From positions 2,983,501 through 3,047,500 of the forward strand of contig NZ_CP031416.1 of the NCBI RefSeq assembly GCF_003367375.1: a stretch of 64,000 nt of DNA, given 5' to 3'. The stretch comes from Gallaecimonas mangrovi (GTDB lineage: Bacteria > Pseudomonadota > Gammaproteobacteria > Enterobacterales > Gallaecimonadaceae). The notes under the pieces are model-generated. The model searched no databases, had not been told where the DNA came from, and worked only from the letters and a program-made list of their open reading frames with translations. This document shows positions 14,346 to 45,982 of this stretch, one piece after another. Each line of letters begins with the position of its first letter. Positions within the stretch are counted from its first letter, which is position 1. A program made the translations under genes and the position numbers.

Positions 14346-14930
14346 TTAACGCCTGAGCAACGGTTGCAGCCGTTTATCGATAGCTTCACGAGCCCGGAAG
14401 ATCCGCGACCTGACAGTGCCCACAGGGCAATCCATCACAGTGGCGATCTCCTCATAACTGAGCCCTTCCATTTCCCGCAGCGTGATGGCGGAACGCAAAT
14501 CGTCCGGCAAGGACTCAATGGTTTCGAACACCACTTTCTTTATTTCGTCTGACAGCAACATTCGTTCTGGGCTGTCAACTTCACGCAGCGCATCAGCGCC
14601 GTCATAGAATTCTGCTTCGTCCGCGTCCACATCATTGGCCGGCGGACGACGGCCTTGCGCCACTAAATAGTTTTTGGCGCTATTGACCGCGATACGATAA
14701 AGCCAGGTATAAAAGGCACTTTCGCCGCGGAAATTAGGCAGGGCACGATAGGCCTTAATAAAGGCTTCCTGCACAACATCAGGTACATCGCCCTGATTTT
14801 TTACATACCGCCCCACCAAGTTGGCTAAACGGTGTTGGTATTTGGCGACGAGCAAGTTGAACGCCTGTTTGTCACCACGTTGTACACGCTCAACCAACGC
14901 CAGGTCGTTATCAACGGTCTGCTCAGTCAT
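14346..14930 (-). CDS. rpoE: RNA polymerase sigma factor RpoE (sigma-E)
   Basis: Extracytoplasmic-function sigma factor for envelope stress. Region 2 (QAFNLLVAKYQHRLANLV to WLYRIAVNSAKNYL) and region 4 (LREMEGLSYEEIATVMDCP, GTVRSRIFRAREAI) are complete. The Met chosen gives MTEQTVDNDLALVERVQRGD, matching the E. coli start, at 194 residues. An upstream in-frame Met at 14993 would sit next to the predicted sigma-E transcription start, so it is unlikely. It heads rpoE-rseA-rseB-rseC and is divergent from nadB, the usual arrangement. Confidence 0.97.
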   Translation of the reverse strand: MTEQTVDNDLALVERVQRGDKQAFNLLVAKYQHRLANLVGRYVKNQGDVPDVVQEAFIKAYRALPNFRGESAFYTWLYRIAVNSAKNYLVAQGRRPPANDVDADEAEFYDGADALREVDSPERMLLSDEIKKVVFETIESLPDDLRSAITLREMEGLSYEEIATVMDCPVGTVRSRIFRAREAIDKRLQPLLRR

Positions 14931-14996
14931 CCGAGCCTGTTCTCCCAACATGTTATTCTCAGTTTTTGCGTTCTGACTCGGTACCAGCGCCACCTG

Positions 14997-15024
14997 TATG
15001 ACGTGGTAATTTAAGGGAAGTTCA
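14997..15024 (-). promoter_or_regulatory. Predicted sigma-E promoter of rpoE (autoregulation)
   Basis: On the minus strand TGAACTT (-35) is followed after 16 bases by TCATA (-10). This is the same spacing as the known autoregulated rpoE promoter of E. coli (GGAACTT, 16 bases, TCTAA). The leader to the rpoE ATG would be about 60 bases. Confidence 0.65.
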
Positions 15025-15040
15025 ATTAATCCCTAACTTT

Positions 15041-38292: not shown

Positions 38293-40221
38293 TTACACCT
38301 TGAAACGCCCCACCAAACCTTGTAGCTCGGTGCCAAGGCTCGCCAGACCCTCGGTTGCGTTAGCGGTTTCCTCCGAGGCTTCCGCCGCTTGCTCGGCAAT
38401 TTCCCGCACCCGCACCACGCTTTGGTTAATGTCTTCTGCCACGGTGCTTTGCTCTTCGGCGGCCGTTGCAATTTGGTGGTTCATGTCTTGAATGCGCGAC
38501 ACCGCATTGGCTATTTCCGTCAGCGCACCGCCAGATTGCTGCGCCAAGGCAACCGACTCATCGGTAAGCGAGCGGCTACGCTCCATTTTCTGCACCGATT
38601 CTTGGGTGCCGTGCTGCAAATTGGCAATAAGGCTTTCGATTTCTTCGGTCGATTCCTGAGTGCGTTTGGCAAGGCCCCTTACTTCATCGGCAACCACCGC
38701 GAAACCACGGCCAGCTTCACCAGCCCGCGCCGCTTCAATGGCAGCGTTTAGCGCCAACAGGTTAGTTTGCTCGGCGACCGCTTTAATGACGTCCAGCACA
38801 GTGCCGATGCTATCGCTGTCGGCTTTTAGGTTTTCCATCGCCTCGGCGGTTGAGGCAATTTCAACCGATAGGGTTTCAATTTGATTGACGGCTTTTTCAA
38901 TCACCTTGGCACCCTCAGCGGTGGTGTGGTCGGCCTCGCTGGCCGCCACAGCCGCCAGCTCGGCGTTACGCGCCACTTCTTGCACGGTGGCGGTCATTTG
39001 ATTAATAGCGGTTGCTACTTGGTCGGTTTCGGCGCGCTGGCGCTGCATGCCAGCGCTGTTTTGCTCAGCCACCGCTGACAGCTGCTCTGATGAACTGGCG
39101 ATTTGCTCAACACTGCCGGAGATTTTGCCCATTACATCGCGCAAGGTGCTGTTCATGTGTGACATTGCCGCCAGCAGCTCGCCCAATTCGTCTTTACGGT
39201 TGCTATGAATATCGGTGCTCAAGTCACCATCAGCAATCACTTTGGCTACCGCTACCGTGCGCCGCAACGGCACCACTATCTGCCGGGCAATCACCAAGGC
39301 GGCAATAATGCCAAGCACTATGGCGCATACCGAGGCTCCCAGCAGCAAGCCAATAGAACTCTCGCCGTCGGCTTCCTGTTTGCGCGACTGCCCGGCCATT
39401 AAGTCATTCACCTGCGCGGTCAAGGCTTTGGCCTCATCGGTCATGCTGCTATTTAGCTGCTCCATGGAATCCACCACGCTATTGAGCTTTTGCACGTGGT
39501 CGCGATAACCCGCCAGGGCTTTAAGGGCTTCGCTAAGGGTGTCTTTGTCGCCACCACCGATATTGAGGCTGTCGGCCAACTTTTGGATACCGGCCATGGT
39601 TTTGTTGGCGGCATCAAGGTTTTTGGCGCTGCCATCAACAATGTAACCGCGCATGTAATAGCGCAGCATCGCCACTTGCTGGTTGATGTTTGAAGCGATT
39701 AGGGCGTTATTAACCACGGCTTCATCGGCCATGACTTGTGCCATTTGGCCCAAGCTGTCATTCAGTTGGGTGACTTTCCCAACCATGACATTACCAATTT
39801 TAACCCAGCTTTTGCGGATCTCGGCTTTGTTGTTGGAAAGGTCGACAAAGCGGGAAAAGTCTTGCTGGTATTGGCCAGTAATAGATTGAATTTTCTTCAG
39901 GCGCTGAATGTCATTGGCAGTCACAAACAGCGAGAGCTTATCGCTCACTAATGCCCTAAGCGCTTTTACGGTGGTTTCGAACTCGGTGGCGAAAGATGCG
40001 TCGCCGCTTATCAGGTAATCGCGGCGAAAGATCTCGGCTTTCAAGGTCATATTGTTTATGTCGCCCCCGATAGCCACTTTGTCACTGCGAGCCAGTACCG
40101 AGTTCAAACCGAGGGTACCGGCAACAGTCACAATTAAGGTCAATACGAGTACGACACCAAACCCGCAGCCCAATTTGGCTGCTACCGATAAGTTATCCAT
40201 CCATCGGGTCAGGTTGCTCAT
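38293..40221 (-). CDS. Methyl-accepting chemotaxis protein with long (HBM-like) sensor
   Basis: Chemoreceptor of 642 residues. TM1 ([17 protein letters not shown]) is followed by about 270 periplasmic residues, nearly all helical, consistent with a helical bimodular (HBM) ligand domain as in Pseudomonas McpS. TM2 ([16 protein letters not shown]), HAMP, and a signalling domain with [18 protein letters not shown] follow. HBM receptors known so far bind organic acids or amines, so such a ligand is plausible. The AT-rich region beyond its start (40222-40949) probably holds its promoter. Confidence 0.92.
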
Positions 40222-40867
40222 TTTATGCCTCTATTTTTTAGCGCAAGCTGCTTTCCCTATAACGACTAACGTAAAAAGAACTTAAACGTTAACCGCCCCC
40301 AAACGGGAAAAAGATAACATCTTTTTGAAAAAGCGACCCGCACAGAAGCGATTGATATATATGAATTATACTAAAGTCGTAGATAATCTTGCCGCGTGAT
40401 AAAGCCGCGCAATAAACAAAAGGGTAACAGCTAATACATTTTATTAAAAATGTGATTTTTCGGTACTTGCAGGCAGGTTTTATTACTAGCAGCAGCGCGA
40501 GATAAAACGCCGGAGAAAATATCGCCTTGAATTTAATTATCACTCAGTAACATTAAAAATTTCACTGCCTTGTGATATTAAAAAAAACAGTTATTAAAAG
40601 TAGATAGAACAGTGCTTGAAATTTTCGTTAAAACACCGTGCACTTTATTAGCACGAAAACATTAAACACTAAATTTAATAACTAAAAATGATAGTAAACA
40701 CTAACAATCAATAATGCCAAGAGCCTTTCCAGGCCTTAACCAACAGCAATAAAACCAAACCATTAAATATCAACAACTTAATTAATAACCGCCATATTAC
40801 ACCGGTAGCACAAACCGGAATTCCGCCCCTTCAGCGTTGCATCCATTTAAAGCACATTAGAAAGTCC
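40222..40867. other. AT-rich gap without a supported gene
   Basis: About 650 bases of markedly AT-rich sequence between the chemoreceptor start and the sigma-E-like promoter at 40868. One 84-codon minus-strand ORF (40289-40543) exists, but it has no ribosome site, odd composition and no domain. Promoter and regulatory DNA for the divergent genes is the likely content. Confidence 0.5.
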
Positions 40868-40895
40868 GGAACTTTTTATAACGTACCCAGTCTGC
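40868..40895 (+). promoter_or_regulatory. Predicted sigma-E promoter
   Basis: GGAACTT, 16 bases, TCTGC. The -35 is a perfect sigma-E box and the spacing equals that of the rpoE promoter in this window; the -10 matches TCTGA at four of five positions. Transcription should start near 40902, about 48 bases before the 33-codon ORF and 230 bases before the Gld-type ABC operon. Confidence 0.6.
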
Positions 40896-40949
40896 AATTT
40901 TCGGTAATAACCAACCACATCCGAGACTCAGCTGTAGAGGGAGTGAACG

Positions 40950-41051
40950 ATGATACTAGGCACGCTAAATAAAAATGTTGCCTTAGCATTGCACTACTTA
41001 ATACGCCGACTTATGCGCCAAGCGAACGCGGTTATTTTCGACACGCGTTAA
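40950..41051 (+). CDS. Possible 33-residue small protein or leader peptide
   Basis: ATG after a strong GAGGGAG ribosome site (about seven bases away), 34 codons including stop. The product has a hydrophobic-then-basic helix-like middle (NVALALHYLIRRLMRQ) that could associate with membranes. It lies just after the predicted sigma-E promoter and before the ABC operon, with no terminator in between. It may be a real small protein, a translated leader, or chance. No family is known. Confidence 0.35.
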   Translation: MILGTLNKNVALALHYLIRRLMRQANAVIFDTR

Positions 41052-41134
41052 GCATTTCCTTTTTCCATTTTTCGAATGGCTGCTATTTGGCATCGCAGTC
41101 AGTGGCGTTTTGCATTTAAATTTCGGAGAACACC

Positions 41135-42049
41135 ATGATCCAGGTTGAAAACCTGACTCGCCGATATGGCGAGCTAACGGCGGTGGATAACGTCAGCTTC
41201 CACATTCCACGCGGTGAAGTGGTGGGATTACTCGGCCACAACGGCGCCGGTAAAACCACCATCATGAAAATGATCACCGGCTTTCTTGAGCCAACTGCTG
41301 GCAGTATTGATGTCGACAACTTAAGCATCGGCCAAGATACCCGCGCCATTCAAAAACGCATCGGCTACCTGCCAGAGAACTGCCCGGTATGGCCTGAGAT
41401 GCGCGTTATTGATTACCTTGTTTACCAGGCGGGCCTGCACGGTGTGCCGGAACATGAACGGGCGGATGCGGTGGCTTCGGCGATCCGCCGCACCGCCCTG
41501 AAAGAAAAGGCCGTAGCCTCAATTCAGACACTGTCACGAGGTTATCGCCAGCGGGTTGGGGTAGCCCAAGCGCTCTTGCATAACCCTGACATTATCATCC
41601 TTGATGAGCCCACCAACGGCCTTGATCCAACACAAATTCAGCACATGCGGCACCTTATTGCCGAGCTGGCCGAAACCGCTACCGTGATTGTGTCCACGCA
41701 CATCATGCAAGAAGTCCAGGCAGTGTGTGAACGGGTGCTCATTATGCGCCGTGGCCAGCTGGTCGTGGATTCACGGCTCGACGCCCTGCAACAGGCCAAA
41801 GGCTTAATGGTTGAGCTCGACAGCCATGCCGAGCAAACCCTAACCGCTTTGCCCGCGCTAACGGTGCTGGAACGAACAGAGCTCAGTAACGGCCACTACC
41901 AGTATCGGCTGGACACCCCTGCCGACACCGCCCCGAAAGTGGCCTCGGCCCTGGTTACAGCCGGGCACCAGCTTTATGCCTTGCAGCCCCTGCGCCGCGA
42001 TTTAGAAACGGTTTTTGCCGAAGTGAATGGGGAGGTTGCCAATGGCTGA
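41135..42049 (+). CDS. ABC transporter ATP-binding protein, GldA-like
   Basis: ATPase of 304 residues with Walker A GHNGAGKTT near residue 35, signature LSRGYRQRV, Walker B IIILDEPTNGLDP and H-loop VSTHIMQE. A C-terminal extension of about 90 residues is typical of ABC-2 exporters. GGAG precedes the ATG. The next gene starts eight bases before its stop. The set ATPase, permease-GldG fusion and DUF4340 protein matches Gld-type systems, which in non-gliding bacteria have unknown cargo. Confidence 0.93.
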   Translation: MIQVENLTRRYGELTAVDNVSFHIPRGEVVGLLGHNGAGKTTIMKMITGFLEPTAGSIDVDNLSIGQDTRAIQKRIGYLPENCPVWPEMRVIDYLVYQAGLHGVPEHERADAVASAIRRTALKEKAVASIQTLSRGYRQRVGVAQALLHNPDIIILDEPTNGLDPTQIQHMRHLIAELAETATVIVSTHIMQEVQAVCERVLIMRRGQLVVDSRLDALQQAKGLMVELDSHAEQTLTALPALTVLERTELSNGHYQYRLDTPADTAPKVASALVTAGHQLYALQPLRRDLETVFAEVNGEVANG

Positions 42050-44909
42050 GCAATGGCAAATAGCCCGTAAGGAATTTCGTGGATTTTTTGCATCCCCGGC
42101 GGCCTTTTTGTTTTTAGGGGCCTTTTTGGCGGTCTGCCTGTTTGTGGTGTTTTGGGTTGAAGGCTTCTTTGCCCGCAATATCGCCGATGTCAGGCCGCTA
42201 TTTAAATGGATGCCGGTATTGATGATTTTTTTGGTTGCCGCCCTCACCATGCGCAGCTGGTCAGAAGAGCAGCGCGCCGGCACCTTAGAATCGTTACTGA
42301 CCAGCCCGGTAAAACCTTTACATCTTATTTTCGGCAAGTTCCTGGCTGTGCTGGGGCTGGTGGCGCTGGCGTTGCTGCTGACACTGCCACTGCCCATAAC
42401 AGTGTCTTTTATCGGGCCGCTGGATTGGGGCCCGGTTATCGGCGGCTATGTGGCCTCCTTGTTCTTGGCTGCCGCCTATATCGCCATTGGCCTTTATATG
42501 AGCTCACGCACCGACAACGCCATTGTGGCGCTGATTTTAACGGTGCTGCTGTGCGGTGTGTTTTACCTGATTGGTAGCCCCGGCTTAACCAATCTTTTTG
42601 GTTATGAAACTGGCGATGTGCTGCGCGATATTGGCACCGGTTCACGCTTTGACTCTATTACCCGCGGCGTGCTTGATCTGCGCGATCTGTACTACTACCT
42701 GTCGCTGGTGGGCATATTCCTGGCCCTTAACTTATTGCGCCTGCAACGGCTGCGCTGGGCAGGAAACCCCAGTACCAAGGTGCACCAAGGCTGGCGCAGG
42801 CTAACGGCGCTGGTGGTTGTTAACCTTATCGCCGCCAACCTGTGGCTGGCCCCCATTAGCTGGGCCCGCATCGACATGACCCAGGGCCAGCAATACACCT
42901 TGTCGGCCGCGTCCAAGCATTACCTCAACCGCTTGCAGCAACCCTTGGTCATTCGCGGTTATTTTTCCTCAAAAACCCACCCATTGCTGGAACCCTTGGT
43001 GCCGCAAATCAAAGATCTGCTGGCCGAATACGCCGAAGATTCCAACAACAAAGTCCGGGTGGAGTTTGTCGACCCGCAAAAAGACCAAAAAGCCGCCCAA
43101 CAGGCCGCGTCTCGCTACGGTATTCAACCCATATCCTTTGAAACTGCCAGCAAATATTCGGCAGGGGTAATGAGCTCTTACTTTAATATCGTGGTGTCTT
43201 ATGGCGACCAGTACAAAGTGCTGGGTTACAAGGACCTCATTGAAGTCAAAGGCCGTGGCGACCATATCGATGTGGCGCTGAAAAACCCCGAATATGCCAT
43301 TACCAGCGCCATTCGCCGGGTCATGAACAAGTGGCAAAACGGCGGTAGTCCCTTTGCGGCCATTAAAGGCCCGGTGACCTTCCATGGCTATATTTCGGCT
43401 AACAGCACCTTGCCGCCACAAATGCAGGCATTGCGCCACCAGCTGGACAAGGTGCTTCAAGACCTCAAGGAAAGCGCCGCGGGCAAACTCAGCGCCGACT
43501 TCCAAAACCCAGAGGCCGATGGCGGCAAACTGGCGGAGCAACTGCACAAACAGTTCGGCTTTACGCCACAAGTCATGGGCCTAACCCGCCGCCGGCCATT
43601 TTGGTTTTACATGACACTGCAAAGCGGCGACAACACCGTACAGGTGCCACTGCCCCACAAGCTGGGGGAAGCGGCCCTTAAAAAGTCCATAACCTCGGCA
43701 CTACAACGCCTGGCTCCGGGCTTTATGAAAACGGTAGCGTTGGCAGCCCCCGAGCATGGCTACATGCAGCGAGGCGGCAACAGCTATAACGAGCTGCGCC
43801 AAGTGCTAAGCAAAAACATGCAAGTGGAAAACGCCAATCTGGCCAGTGGCCAGGTGCCACAAAATGCCGACTTCTTGTTGGTGATGGCACCAGCGCACTT
43901 GGACAACAAAGCCGTTTTTGCCATAGACCAGTTCCTGATGCGCGGCGGTTCGGTGATGGTGGCCACATCCCCTTATCAGGTGGATATCAGCCGCACCTTA
44001 ACGGCCCACCCCAACACCAGCGGTCTTGAAGCCTGGCTTGCCAGCCAAGGCATTAAGATTGAACACAATATGGTGCTGGACCCACAAAATGCCGCCCTGC
44101 CCTTACCCACAGAGCGCAATGTAGGCGGTGTGATGCTTCGGCAGATGCAAATGTTGCCCTACCCGTATTTCCCCGATCTACGTGCCAAGGGTCTTGCCGA
44201 GCACAACCCGGTTACCGCTTCGCTAAATCAGCTAACCCTGAACTGGGCGTCGCCCATTGACCTTGATAACAGTAAAACCAAGGGCCGTCAGGTCAGTGAA
44301 CTGCTAAAAAGCTCCTCCGGCAGTTGGACCTCAACCAGCCTTAATATGATCCCCAACTTTCGGGAAAACCCCAATACCGGTTTTCGTATTGATGGCACCC
44401 CCAAACCAAGAACCCTGGCGGTGGCTGAAACGGGCCGCTTTACCTCGTTCTTTAAAGGTAAAGACTCACCGTTAACCGCCAACGACGATGCCAAAGCCGC
44501 CGAAACGGCCAAGGGCAAAAATCCTAAAGCCGCGCAGCAACCAGGCATTGGTGGCGTTATCAACCATTCGCCGGATTCGGCAAGGCTGATAGTGGTGGCC
44601 AGTAATGGTTTTGCCAGCGACACCGCAGTGCAGCTTATCTCTCAAGGCATTAACACCCTTTACACCAAGCCTTTTGACTTTGTGCAAAACAGCATCGACT
44701 GGTCTTTGGAAGACCCAGCATTGCTGTCACTGCGGGGCCGAACCCACCTGGCTCGCACCCTCGACGGCATGCCGGTTAAGCAGCAGGAGTTTTGGGAATA
44801 CCTGAACTATGGCTTGGTGGTAATTGGCCTGTTGTTGGTGTGGCTGTGGCGCCGTCAAAGCCGCCGCCGTGACCAACTTCGTTATCAACAGATTTTGGCA
44901 AAGGTGTAA
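42042..44909 (+). CDS. Fused ABC permease and GldG-like protein
   Basis: Large membrane protein of 955 residues. The first 240 or so residues are an ABC-2 permease with six helices and the typical MRSWSEEQRAGTLESLLTSP segment (GldF-like). A further helix is followed by a long periplasmic region (GldG-like ABC_transp_aux domain: QYTLSAASKHYLNRLQQPLV, then FADVDPQ-like EFVDPQKD), and a final helix near the C-terminus (YGLVVIGLLLVWLWRR). GldF and GldG are separate proteins in Bacteroidetes; here they are one chain. GGGGAGG precedes the chosen ATG, five codons inside the open frame. Confidence 0.9.
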   Translation: MAEQWQIARKEFRGFFASPAAFLFLGAFLAVCLFVVFWVEGFFARNIADVRPLFKWMPVLMIFLVAALTMRSWSEEQRAGTLESLLTSPVKPLHLIFGKFLAVLGLVALALLLTLPLPITVSFIGPLDWGPVIGGYVASLFLAAAYIAIGLYMSSRTDNAIVALILTVLLCGVFYLIGSPGLTNLFGYETGDVLRDIGTGSRFDSITRGVLDLRDLYYYLSLVGIFLALNLLRLQRLRWAGNPSTKVHQGWRRLTALVVVNLIAANLWLAPISWARIDMTQGQQYTLSAASKHYLNRLQQPLVIRGYFSSKTHPLLEPLVPQIKDLLAEYAEDSNNKVRVEFVDPQKDQKAAQQAASRYGIQPISFETASKYSAGVMSSYFNIVVSYGDQYKVLGYKDLIEVKGRGDHIDVALKNPEYAITSAIRRVMNKWQNGGSPFAAIKGPVTFHGYISANSTLPPQMQALRHQLDKVLQDLKESAAGKLSADFQNPEADGGKLAEQLHKQFGFTPQVMGLTRRRPFWFYMTLQSGDNTVQVPLPHKLGEAALKKSITSALQRLAPGFMKTVALAAPEHGYMQRGGNSYNELRQVLSKNMQVENANLASGQVPQNADFLLVMAPAHLDNKAVFAIDQFLMRGGSVMVATSPYQVDISRTLTAHPNTSGLEAWLASQGIKIEHNMVLDPQNAALPLPTERNVGGVMLRQMQMLPYPYFPDLRAKGLAEHNPVTASLNQLTLNWASPIDLDNSKTKGRQVSELLKSSSGSWTSTSLNMIPNFRENPNTGFRIDGTPKPRTLAVAETGRFTSFFKGKDSPLTANDDAKAAETAKGKNPKAAQQPGIGGVINHSPDSARLIVVASNGFASDTAVQLISQGINTLYTKPFDFVQNSIDWSLEDPALLSLRGRTHLARTLDGMPVKQQEFWEYLNYGLVVIGLLLVWLWRRQSRRRDQLRYQQILAKV

Positions 44910-44914
44910 CAGTG

Positions 44915-45982
44915 ATGCGCAAACCTCTTTATGTATTAAGCGCCCTGCTGGTAGTGCAATTGCTGCTGGCGCTGGGCCTCAACTTGGGCCACAAAGGGCT
45001 ACAGGCCGGTGAAGCCAGTAAAACGCTTTTGGCCTTAAAGCCTGCTGATGTCACCGAGATTGTGCTTAGCAACCCACAAAAATCGGTAACCCTGGCTAAA
45101 AAAGGCAGCGATTGGTTACTGCCGGGCAGTAATAACTTCCCGGCCGATAACAACCAGGTACATAACCTGCTCAATAATCTGTTGGCCCTTAACCACACCG
45201 GCGCGGTGGCCGACAATAATGACGCCGCCAAACGCTTTAAAGTGGCCGCCAACGACTTTGAGAAAAAGCTGGTACTCAAGCACGGCAACAACATATTGGC
45301 CACGGTGTTTGTGGGCACCTCAGCCTCCATGCACCAGGCCCATGTTCGCTTAAAAGGCCAAGCCAATATCTACCTGGTTGATTTACCCAGCTACCAGTTA
45401 GCGGTGGATAAATCCCATTGGCAAAACCACCGTTTACTGAGTATCGACGGCGATAAAATCGCCAGCATCAGTACCGGTAAACTGACCTTAACCCAGCATC
45501 AAGTAACAGCGCCGAAAGGGTCGGATGCTTCGATGACCAAGGTCTTTAACTGGCAGCTAAGCCCAATGCCCAAAGGTGATGTGGTGAATAAAGACGCGGC
45601 CCAAACCGCCATTAACCAAATTGCCTATCTTCGCACCGGCGTGCAGCTGGGGGATAAAGCCAAGCCTGACTATGGCCTTGATAAGCCGGTGCTTAGCTTG
45701 AAGGTAACCCGCACCGATGGCAGCACCGTTAGCTACCAATTAGCTAAAGAGCCTAAAGGCGGTTACATCTTGAAATCGTCTTTGCGGCCGCAATACTTTG
45801 CGCTGTCTGCAGGCCAGGCCCAGGCGATGCTGAACGCCTTTAGCCTCAGCAAATTGGTGCAAAACCCCAAGGCGAAACAAGCAAAGGTGGCAAGCACAGC
45901 GCCCAGCCCATCGATGGAAAAAGCCATCGGTAAAGCTGACGCCATTTTTAAAAAGGACACCCGCACCCTCGTCAAACAGTAA
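44915..45982 (+). CDS. DUF4340 periplasmic protein of the Gld-type ABC system
   Basis: Protein of 355 residues: N-terminal membrane anchor (PLYVLSALLVVQLLLALGL), then DUF4340-type beta-rich sequence (ADVTEIVLSNPQKSVTLAKK, DWLLPG, RLKGQANIYLVDLPSYQLAV). DUF4340 proteins regularly follow GldG-like genes and probably form part of the same envelope complex. It starts five bases after the previous stop; a GTG one codon earlier is also possible. It ends the operon, with a terminator beyond. Confidence 0.88.
   Translation: MRKPLYVLSALLVVQLLLALGLNLGHKGLQAGEASKTLLALKPADVTEIVLSNPQKSVTLAKKGSDWLLPGSNNFPADNNQVHNLLNNLLALNHTGAVADNNDAAKRFKVAANDFEKKLVLKHGNNILATVFVGTSASMHQAHVRLKGQANIYLVDLPSYQLAVDKSHWQNHRLLSIDGDKIASISTGKLTLTQHQVTAPKGSDASMTKVFNWQLSPMPKGDVVNKDAAQTAINQIAYLRTGVQLGDKAKPDYGLDKPVLSLKVTRTDGSTVSYQLAKEPKGGYILKSSLRPQYFALSAGQAQAMLNAFSLSKLVQNPKAKQAKVASTAPSPSMEKAIGKADAIFKKDTRTLVKQ

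Follow-up and report, generated by a model that had tools for sequence, protein, structure and literature searches.

A sigma-E-type promoter and a candidate leader ORF ahead of a Gld-like ABC operon in Gallaecimonas mangrovi

CutF, the leader of the cutFOG operon of Rhodobacter capsulatus, has a proline-rich C-terminus followed by a stem-loop before the next gene and is thought to act by ribosome stalling (PMC9973294). The Salmonella gene mgtA is preceded by mgtL, a short proline-rich leader, which is Rho-dependent and senses the proline level (described in PMC5021804). In the tna operon of E. coli the arrest of a short peptide, TnaC, controls the operon behind it in response to tryptophan (PMC3902921). 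Polyproline stalls in E. coli can favour both Rho-dependent and intrinsic termination, prevention of termination being discussed too, and EF-P-dependent attenuation was shown with artificial constructs (PMC5021804). For sigma-E promoters the published consensus consists of the -35 element GGAACTTTT and the -10 element GTCAAA (PMC1804206).

The stretch of DNA analyzed here, called the window, comprises 64,000 nucleotides and belongs to a single-contig genome of 4.07 Mb. From position 40868 onward it carries on the + strand a promoter motif GGAACTT-16-TCTGC, an ORF of 33 codons, gldA, a gene for a fused GldF-GldG protein and a gene for a DUF4340 protein, in this order:

40868 to 40895, + strand: sigma-E-type promoter motif with the -35 element GGAACTT (40868-40874), a 16-nt spacer and the -10 element TCTGC (40891-40895); letters GGAACTTTTTATAACGTACCCAGTCTGC
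40937 to 40943, + strand: ribosome-binding site GAGGGAG of the candidate leader ORF, 6 nt before the ATG
40950 to 41051, + strand: candidate leader ORF of 33 codons (ATG at 40950, TAA at 41049-41051), proline-free, in a position that matches the polyproline leader ORFs of relatives
41022 to 41064, + strand: weak, imperfect hairpin (41022-41053) with the U-rich stretch AUUUCCUUUUU (41054-41064), spanning the end of the ORF
41135 to 42049, + strand: GldA-like ABC ATPase of 304 aa, ATG at 41135, 83 nt after the 33-codon ORF
42039 to 44909, + strand: fused GldF-like permease/GldG-like protein of 956 aa, assigned by NCBIfam model matches
44912 to 45982, + strand: DUF4340 protein, encoded by operon gene three

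The Gld-type ABC set is complete, with a GldA-like ATPase, a GldF-like permease and a GldG-like protein. The best NCBIfam models (TIGR03522, TIGR03518 and TIGR03521) all matched below their equivalog cut-offs and we therefore call the system Gld-like, as distinct from the GldAFG system proper of Bacteroidota. In our joint reading, which we regard as probable with appreciable room for doubt, the segment from 40868 onward is the control region of this operon, and the window holds a diverged example of a type of control region in which a sigma-E-type promoter and a leader peptide precede a Gld-like ABC operon. Divergent from the operon, a methyl-accepting chemotaxis protein with a helical bimodular (HBM) sensor domain is encoded at 38293-40221 on the - strand. 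The about 600 nt between this receptor gene and the promoter (40222-40820) are AT-rich, with 34% GC vs 52% in the window, and a search of the span 40200-41400 revealed no Rfam family in this stretch or elsewhere in the span up to an E value of 1.

The 33-codon ORF and its strong GAGGGAG ribosome site were found as the initial annotation had described them. The product, MILGTLNKNVALALHYLIRRLMRQANAVIFDTR, contains a short hydrophobic stretch and no proline, and no frame of the window leader has two consecutive proline codons. The arrest-prone or regulatory codons of leader-peptide attenuators are thus absent from this ORF, and for that reason we do not class the window as a proven attenuator. 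The 33-aa sequence was matched neither in four further genomes of the genus nor in Pfam and NCBIfam, which speaks against the small membrane peptide suggested earlier, and no close relative was found for a coding-constraint test. At the DNA level the matches of the window leader elsewhere were few, short and AT-rich; blastn against the leaders of relatives gave nothing, and in a multiple alignment the leaders had no DNA in common apart from the gldA start. The window ORF and Shewanella leaders (L061, L173) have a similar C-terminal DTR; homology was weighed as the cause and rejected, three residues being too few. A scan of the + strand detected no terminator, in line with the initial annotation, but an imperfect hairpin with a U-rich tail (-12.2 kcal/mol) overlaps the stop codon of the ORF. 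Over 62 nt this hairpin was not better than shuffled sequences (z -0.67), and in a tighter cut of 56 nt z was -2.4. With no Rfam match and no significant fold, the idea of a regulatory RNA was not upheld.

To compare the region with relatives we used 80 ATPase-bearing loci from named genomes and additional loci from whole genomes at the level of order, class and phylum. A short ORF, often with a ribosome site, lies between the promoter and gldA in many relatives. With starts assigned by eye from the sequence, these leaders are about 14-50 aa long; examples, each closed by a stop codon, are VLKMIPYLWRLPPPC, VSRTVPYLWRKPPPF, MSRRTDPSSPRFVPVILSRPPPR, MTDARSTVLSTNNGFLYHPPPPPPI, MTGHDSRLHHCPLVTPIPPPS and MCLSIDRRPNCARPPPY. 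Polyproline stands beside the stop codon in leaders that end in WRLPPPC, LSRPPPR or YHPPPPPPI. SD-preceded ORFs with PPP were found in 13 of 109 regions, compared with a mean of 0.67 (maximum 3) in shuffles and none on the other strand. Three prolines at most two codons from the stop occurred at 7 of 20 near-clade loci (shuffle mean 0.46, maximum 2; other strand 0). Between pairs of leaders the prolines are largely kept, and synonymous changes are in modest excess. Strong hairpins at the leader end are present in Shewanella fodinae (z -3.4) and Thalassospira mesophila (z -4.2). At two Shewanella loci the loop of ACCCGC...GCGGGT contains the leader stop codon, and a T-rich stretch follows the hairpin. 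In Thalassospira a long stem has the PPP codons in its loop. The hairpins that overlap the leader ORF in these genera appear terminator-like. The leaders of three further loci (L050, L053 and L090) have a GTCACGG stretch in common, located in hairpin-forming sequence between the leader stop and gldA. No published description of polyproline leaders at Gld-like operons was found in the open-access literature searched.

A quick tree of 133 ATPases, with SH-aLRT support, placed the window in a clade of 25 members (SH-aLRT 93), 16 of them with the promoter and 13 with a PPP leader. Within this clade the window belongs to a sub-clade of 10 members (support 82), and the nine others all have PP or PPP leaders. 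The same-genus genome G002 (L003, 1386-1466) contains only a distant Gld-like operon with 52% ATPase identity, a polyproline leader (MFYSMNRRQAVARPPPRPPRRQPRVG, followed by the stop codon) and no GGAACTT site. Since only this distant version is present there, the operon of the window was probably gained separately, and the genus seems to hold two versions of independent gain.

These leaders bear on whether the window ORF has a function at all. A long untranslated leader behind a sigma-E promoter would also give an envelope-stress-controlled operon, the 33-codon ORF then being a remnant or a chance frame without regulatory role. Such an arrangement would account for an ORF without proline, without a relative and with a weak hairpin, and the PP or PPP leaders of the nine other sub-clade members would indicate that the feature may be lost in the window. 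We nevertheless consider it unlikely, because the ribosome site is strong, because an SD-bearing ORF of at least 30 codons arose in this stretch in only 34 of 2000 dinucleotide shuffles (1.7%), and because the place and spacing of the ORF match those of the relatives' leaders. As relatives carry a leader ORF at the same position, often with a polyproline end, a leader peptide seems the better reading of the window ORF. The initial annotation had regarded an ORF that is not conserved beside a conserved operon as evidence against its proposal; the peptide sequence does behave in this way, whereas the layout does not.

The promoter motif GGAACTT-16-TCTGC, previously noted for its sigma-E spacing, is present at 40868-40895 and is the only match in the 64-kb window, where 0.05 are expected. 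Its -35 element, spacing and -10 element are of the sigma-E type, the -10 having GTC and, as final base, C in place of A. The exact pattern GGAACTT-N15/16-TCTG has two sites in the 4.07-Mb genome, one before gldA and the other 75 nt upstream of bamE; the reversed pattern, used as control, also gave two sites and there is thus no excess. The shorter pattern GGAACTT-N15/16-TC has 19 sites, likewise with no genome-wide enrichment over the reversed control. Six of the 19 are one repeated sequence, which we take for rRNA, and another, as GGAACTT-N16-TC, is located upstream of bamB. The names bamE and bamB are from NCBIfam models, the bamE match being below its equivalog cut-off. BamE and BamB are members of the sigma-E regulon in enterobacteria. 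The rpoE gene itself lies inside the window (14350-15030, - strand; gene at about 14.3-14.9 kb) behind its own sigma-E-type promoter TGAACTT-16-TCATA. Because of these sites upstream of the accepted regulon genes bamE, bamB and rpoE, and of the match to the published consensus (PMC1804206), the RpoE of this genome very probably reads the GGAACTT/TC pattern. From the motif, a transcription start would be expected near 40901-40902.

Conservation in relatives, which the initial annotation had proposed as a check, was found for the promoter: NGAACTT-16/17-TC occurs at most 400 nt from gldA at 20 of 91 non-redundant loci, preselected for ATPase similarity, vs a mean of 0.94 (maximum 5) in shuffles, which model real intergenic DNA incompletely. 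Two control stretches at the same loci gave 0 matches (first 400 nt of gldA) and 4 matches (800-1200 nt upstream). The sites ahead of gldA belong to Gammaproteobacteria, Betaproteobacteria and Verrucomicrobiota, and outside the gammaproteobacteria other ECF sigma factors may read them. An ECF sigma gene adjoining the operon in relatives was also considered, and no RpoE-like frame was detected in the loci searched. Loci of the Puniceicoccaceae type (L071, L075 and L087) have a longer leader ORF of about 49 aa in common, MKSESVSF...MFPTPTTPAGFA..., behind GGAACTT-17-TC.

Transcription of the operon from another promoter, with the motif arising by chance, would fit the missing enrichment of the core pattern and the -10 without a final A. 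We consider this very improbable in view of the same pattern before bamE and bamB, the recurrence at gldA in further genera and phyla, and a scan of the + strand that showed no sigma-70-type site between motif and gldA. Sigma-E control of the ABC operon, as originally proposed, is supported by the patterns at bamE, bamB and rpoE together with this recurrence, and promoter control of the window's operon is probable. A role of the ORF product in the ABC system, as a small membrane peptide or a partner peptide, would suit the co-directional ORF, its good translation signals and the short hydrophobic stretch. We regard such a role as hardly credible, as the sequence is not conserved between relatives and the relatives' leaders are often rich in proline and arginine and are not membrane-like. 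Of the initial interpretation, sigma-E control was retained, and the small membrane peptide and the small RNA found no support.

For the leader-peptide control region that we favour, the following course can be proposed. RNA polymerase with RpoE would start near 40902 and the transcript would contain a translated leader ORF first and the operon after it. In relatives the ribosome would slow or stall on the last, polyproline codons of the leader, and its position would decide whether transcription ends, at the hairpin downstream or at a Rho site, or gldA is translated; transcription, translation, stalling and the direction of control are all inferred. Stalling at the polyproline end appears the likeliest mode of leader action in relatives. 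The window ORF is on balance likely to be translated, and stalling at it may be lost. Since its peptide is proline-free and its hairpin weak, the leader here would be a remnant or an arrest peptide that has diverged, and promoter control would persist. More tentatively, and with less confidence than doubt, the relatives may represent a widespread new class of polyproline leaders that couples sigma-E-type transcription of Gld-like ABC operons to the speed of ribosomes on prolines (EF-P or prolyl-tRNA supply), the lineage of the window having swapped the arrest sequence for a proline-free one. To our knowledge Gld-like ABC systems are common outside Bacteroidota and no role has been found for them; a recurring envelope-stress promoter at their operons would be the first physiological lead for the system. 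Through the recurring polyproline leader, a connection of envelope stress and translation speed with a transporter becomes open to test, and the leaders add candidate natural targets of EF-P-dependent attenuation.

We know of no described sigma-E regulon that includes a Gld-like ABC operon, and no paper on such a case was found in the open-access literature searched. With enterobacterial sigma-E regulon promoters (PMC1804206) the window shares the -35 element GGAACTTTT and a GTC-type -10; the difference is the target, a Gld-like ABC operon. The leaders of Gld-like operons resemble mgtL as short proline-rich leaders, and translation of mgtL controls the transcription of a transporter gene. They differ in the gene, and Rho-dependent sensing of the proline level belongs to mgtL, for which we know of no sigma-E promoter. 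TnaC is likewise a short leader peptide ahead of a controlled operon; arrest belongs to TnaC and is proposed for the relatives' leaders, and no TnaC sequence is recognisable in them. The nearest known case is CutF. It is an exported copper sensor with a signal peptide and CxxxC, whereas the relatives' leaders show neither; its stem-loop hides the ribosome site of cutO, whereas at some Gld loci the hairpin looks like a terminator; and the window ORF, unlike CutF, is proline-free. CutF and the leaders of the relatives are alike in being encoded by an upstream frame, in their proline-rich C-terminus and in the stem-loop that precedes the next gene.
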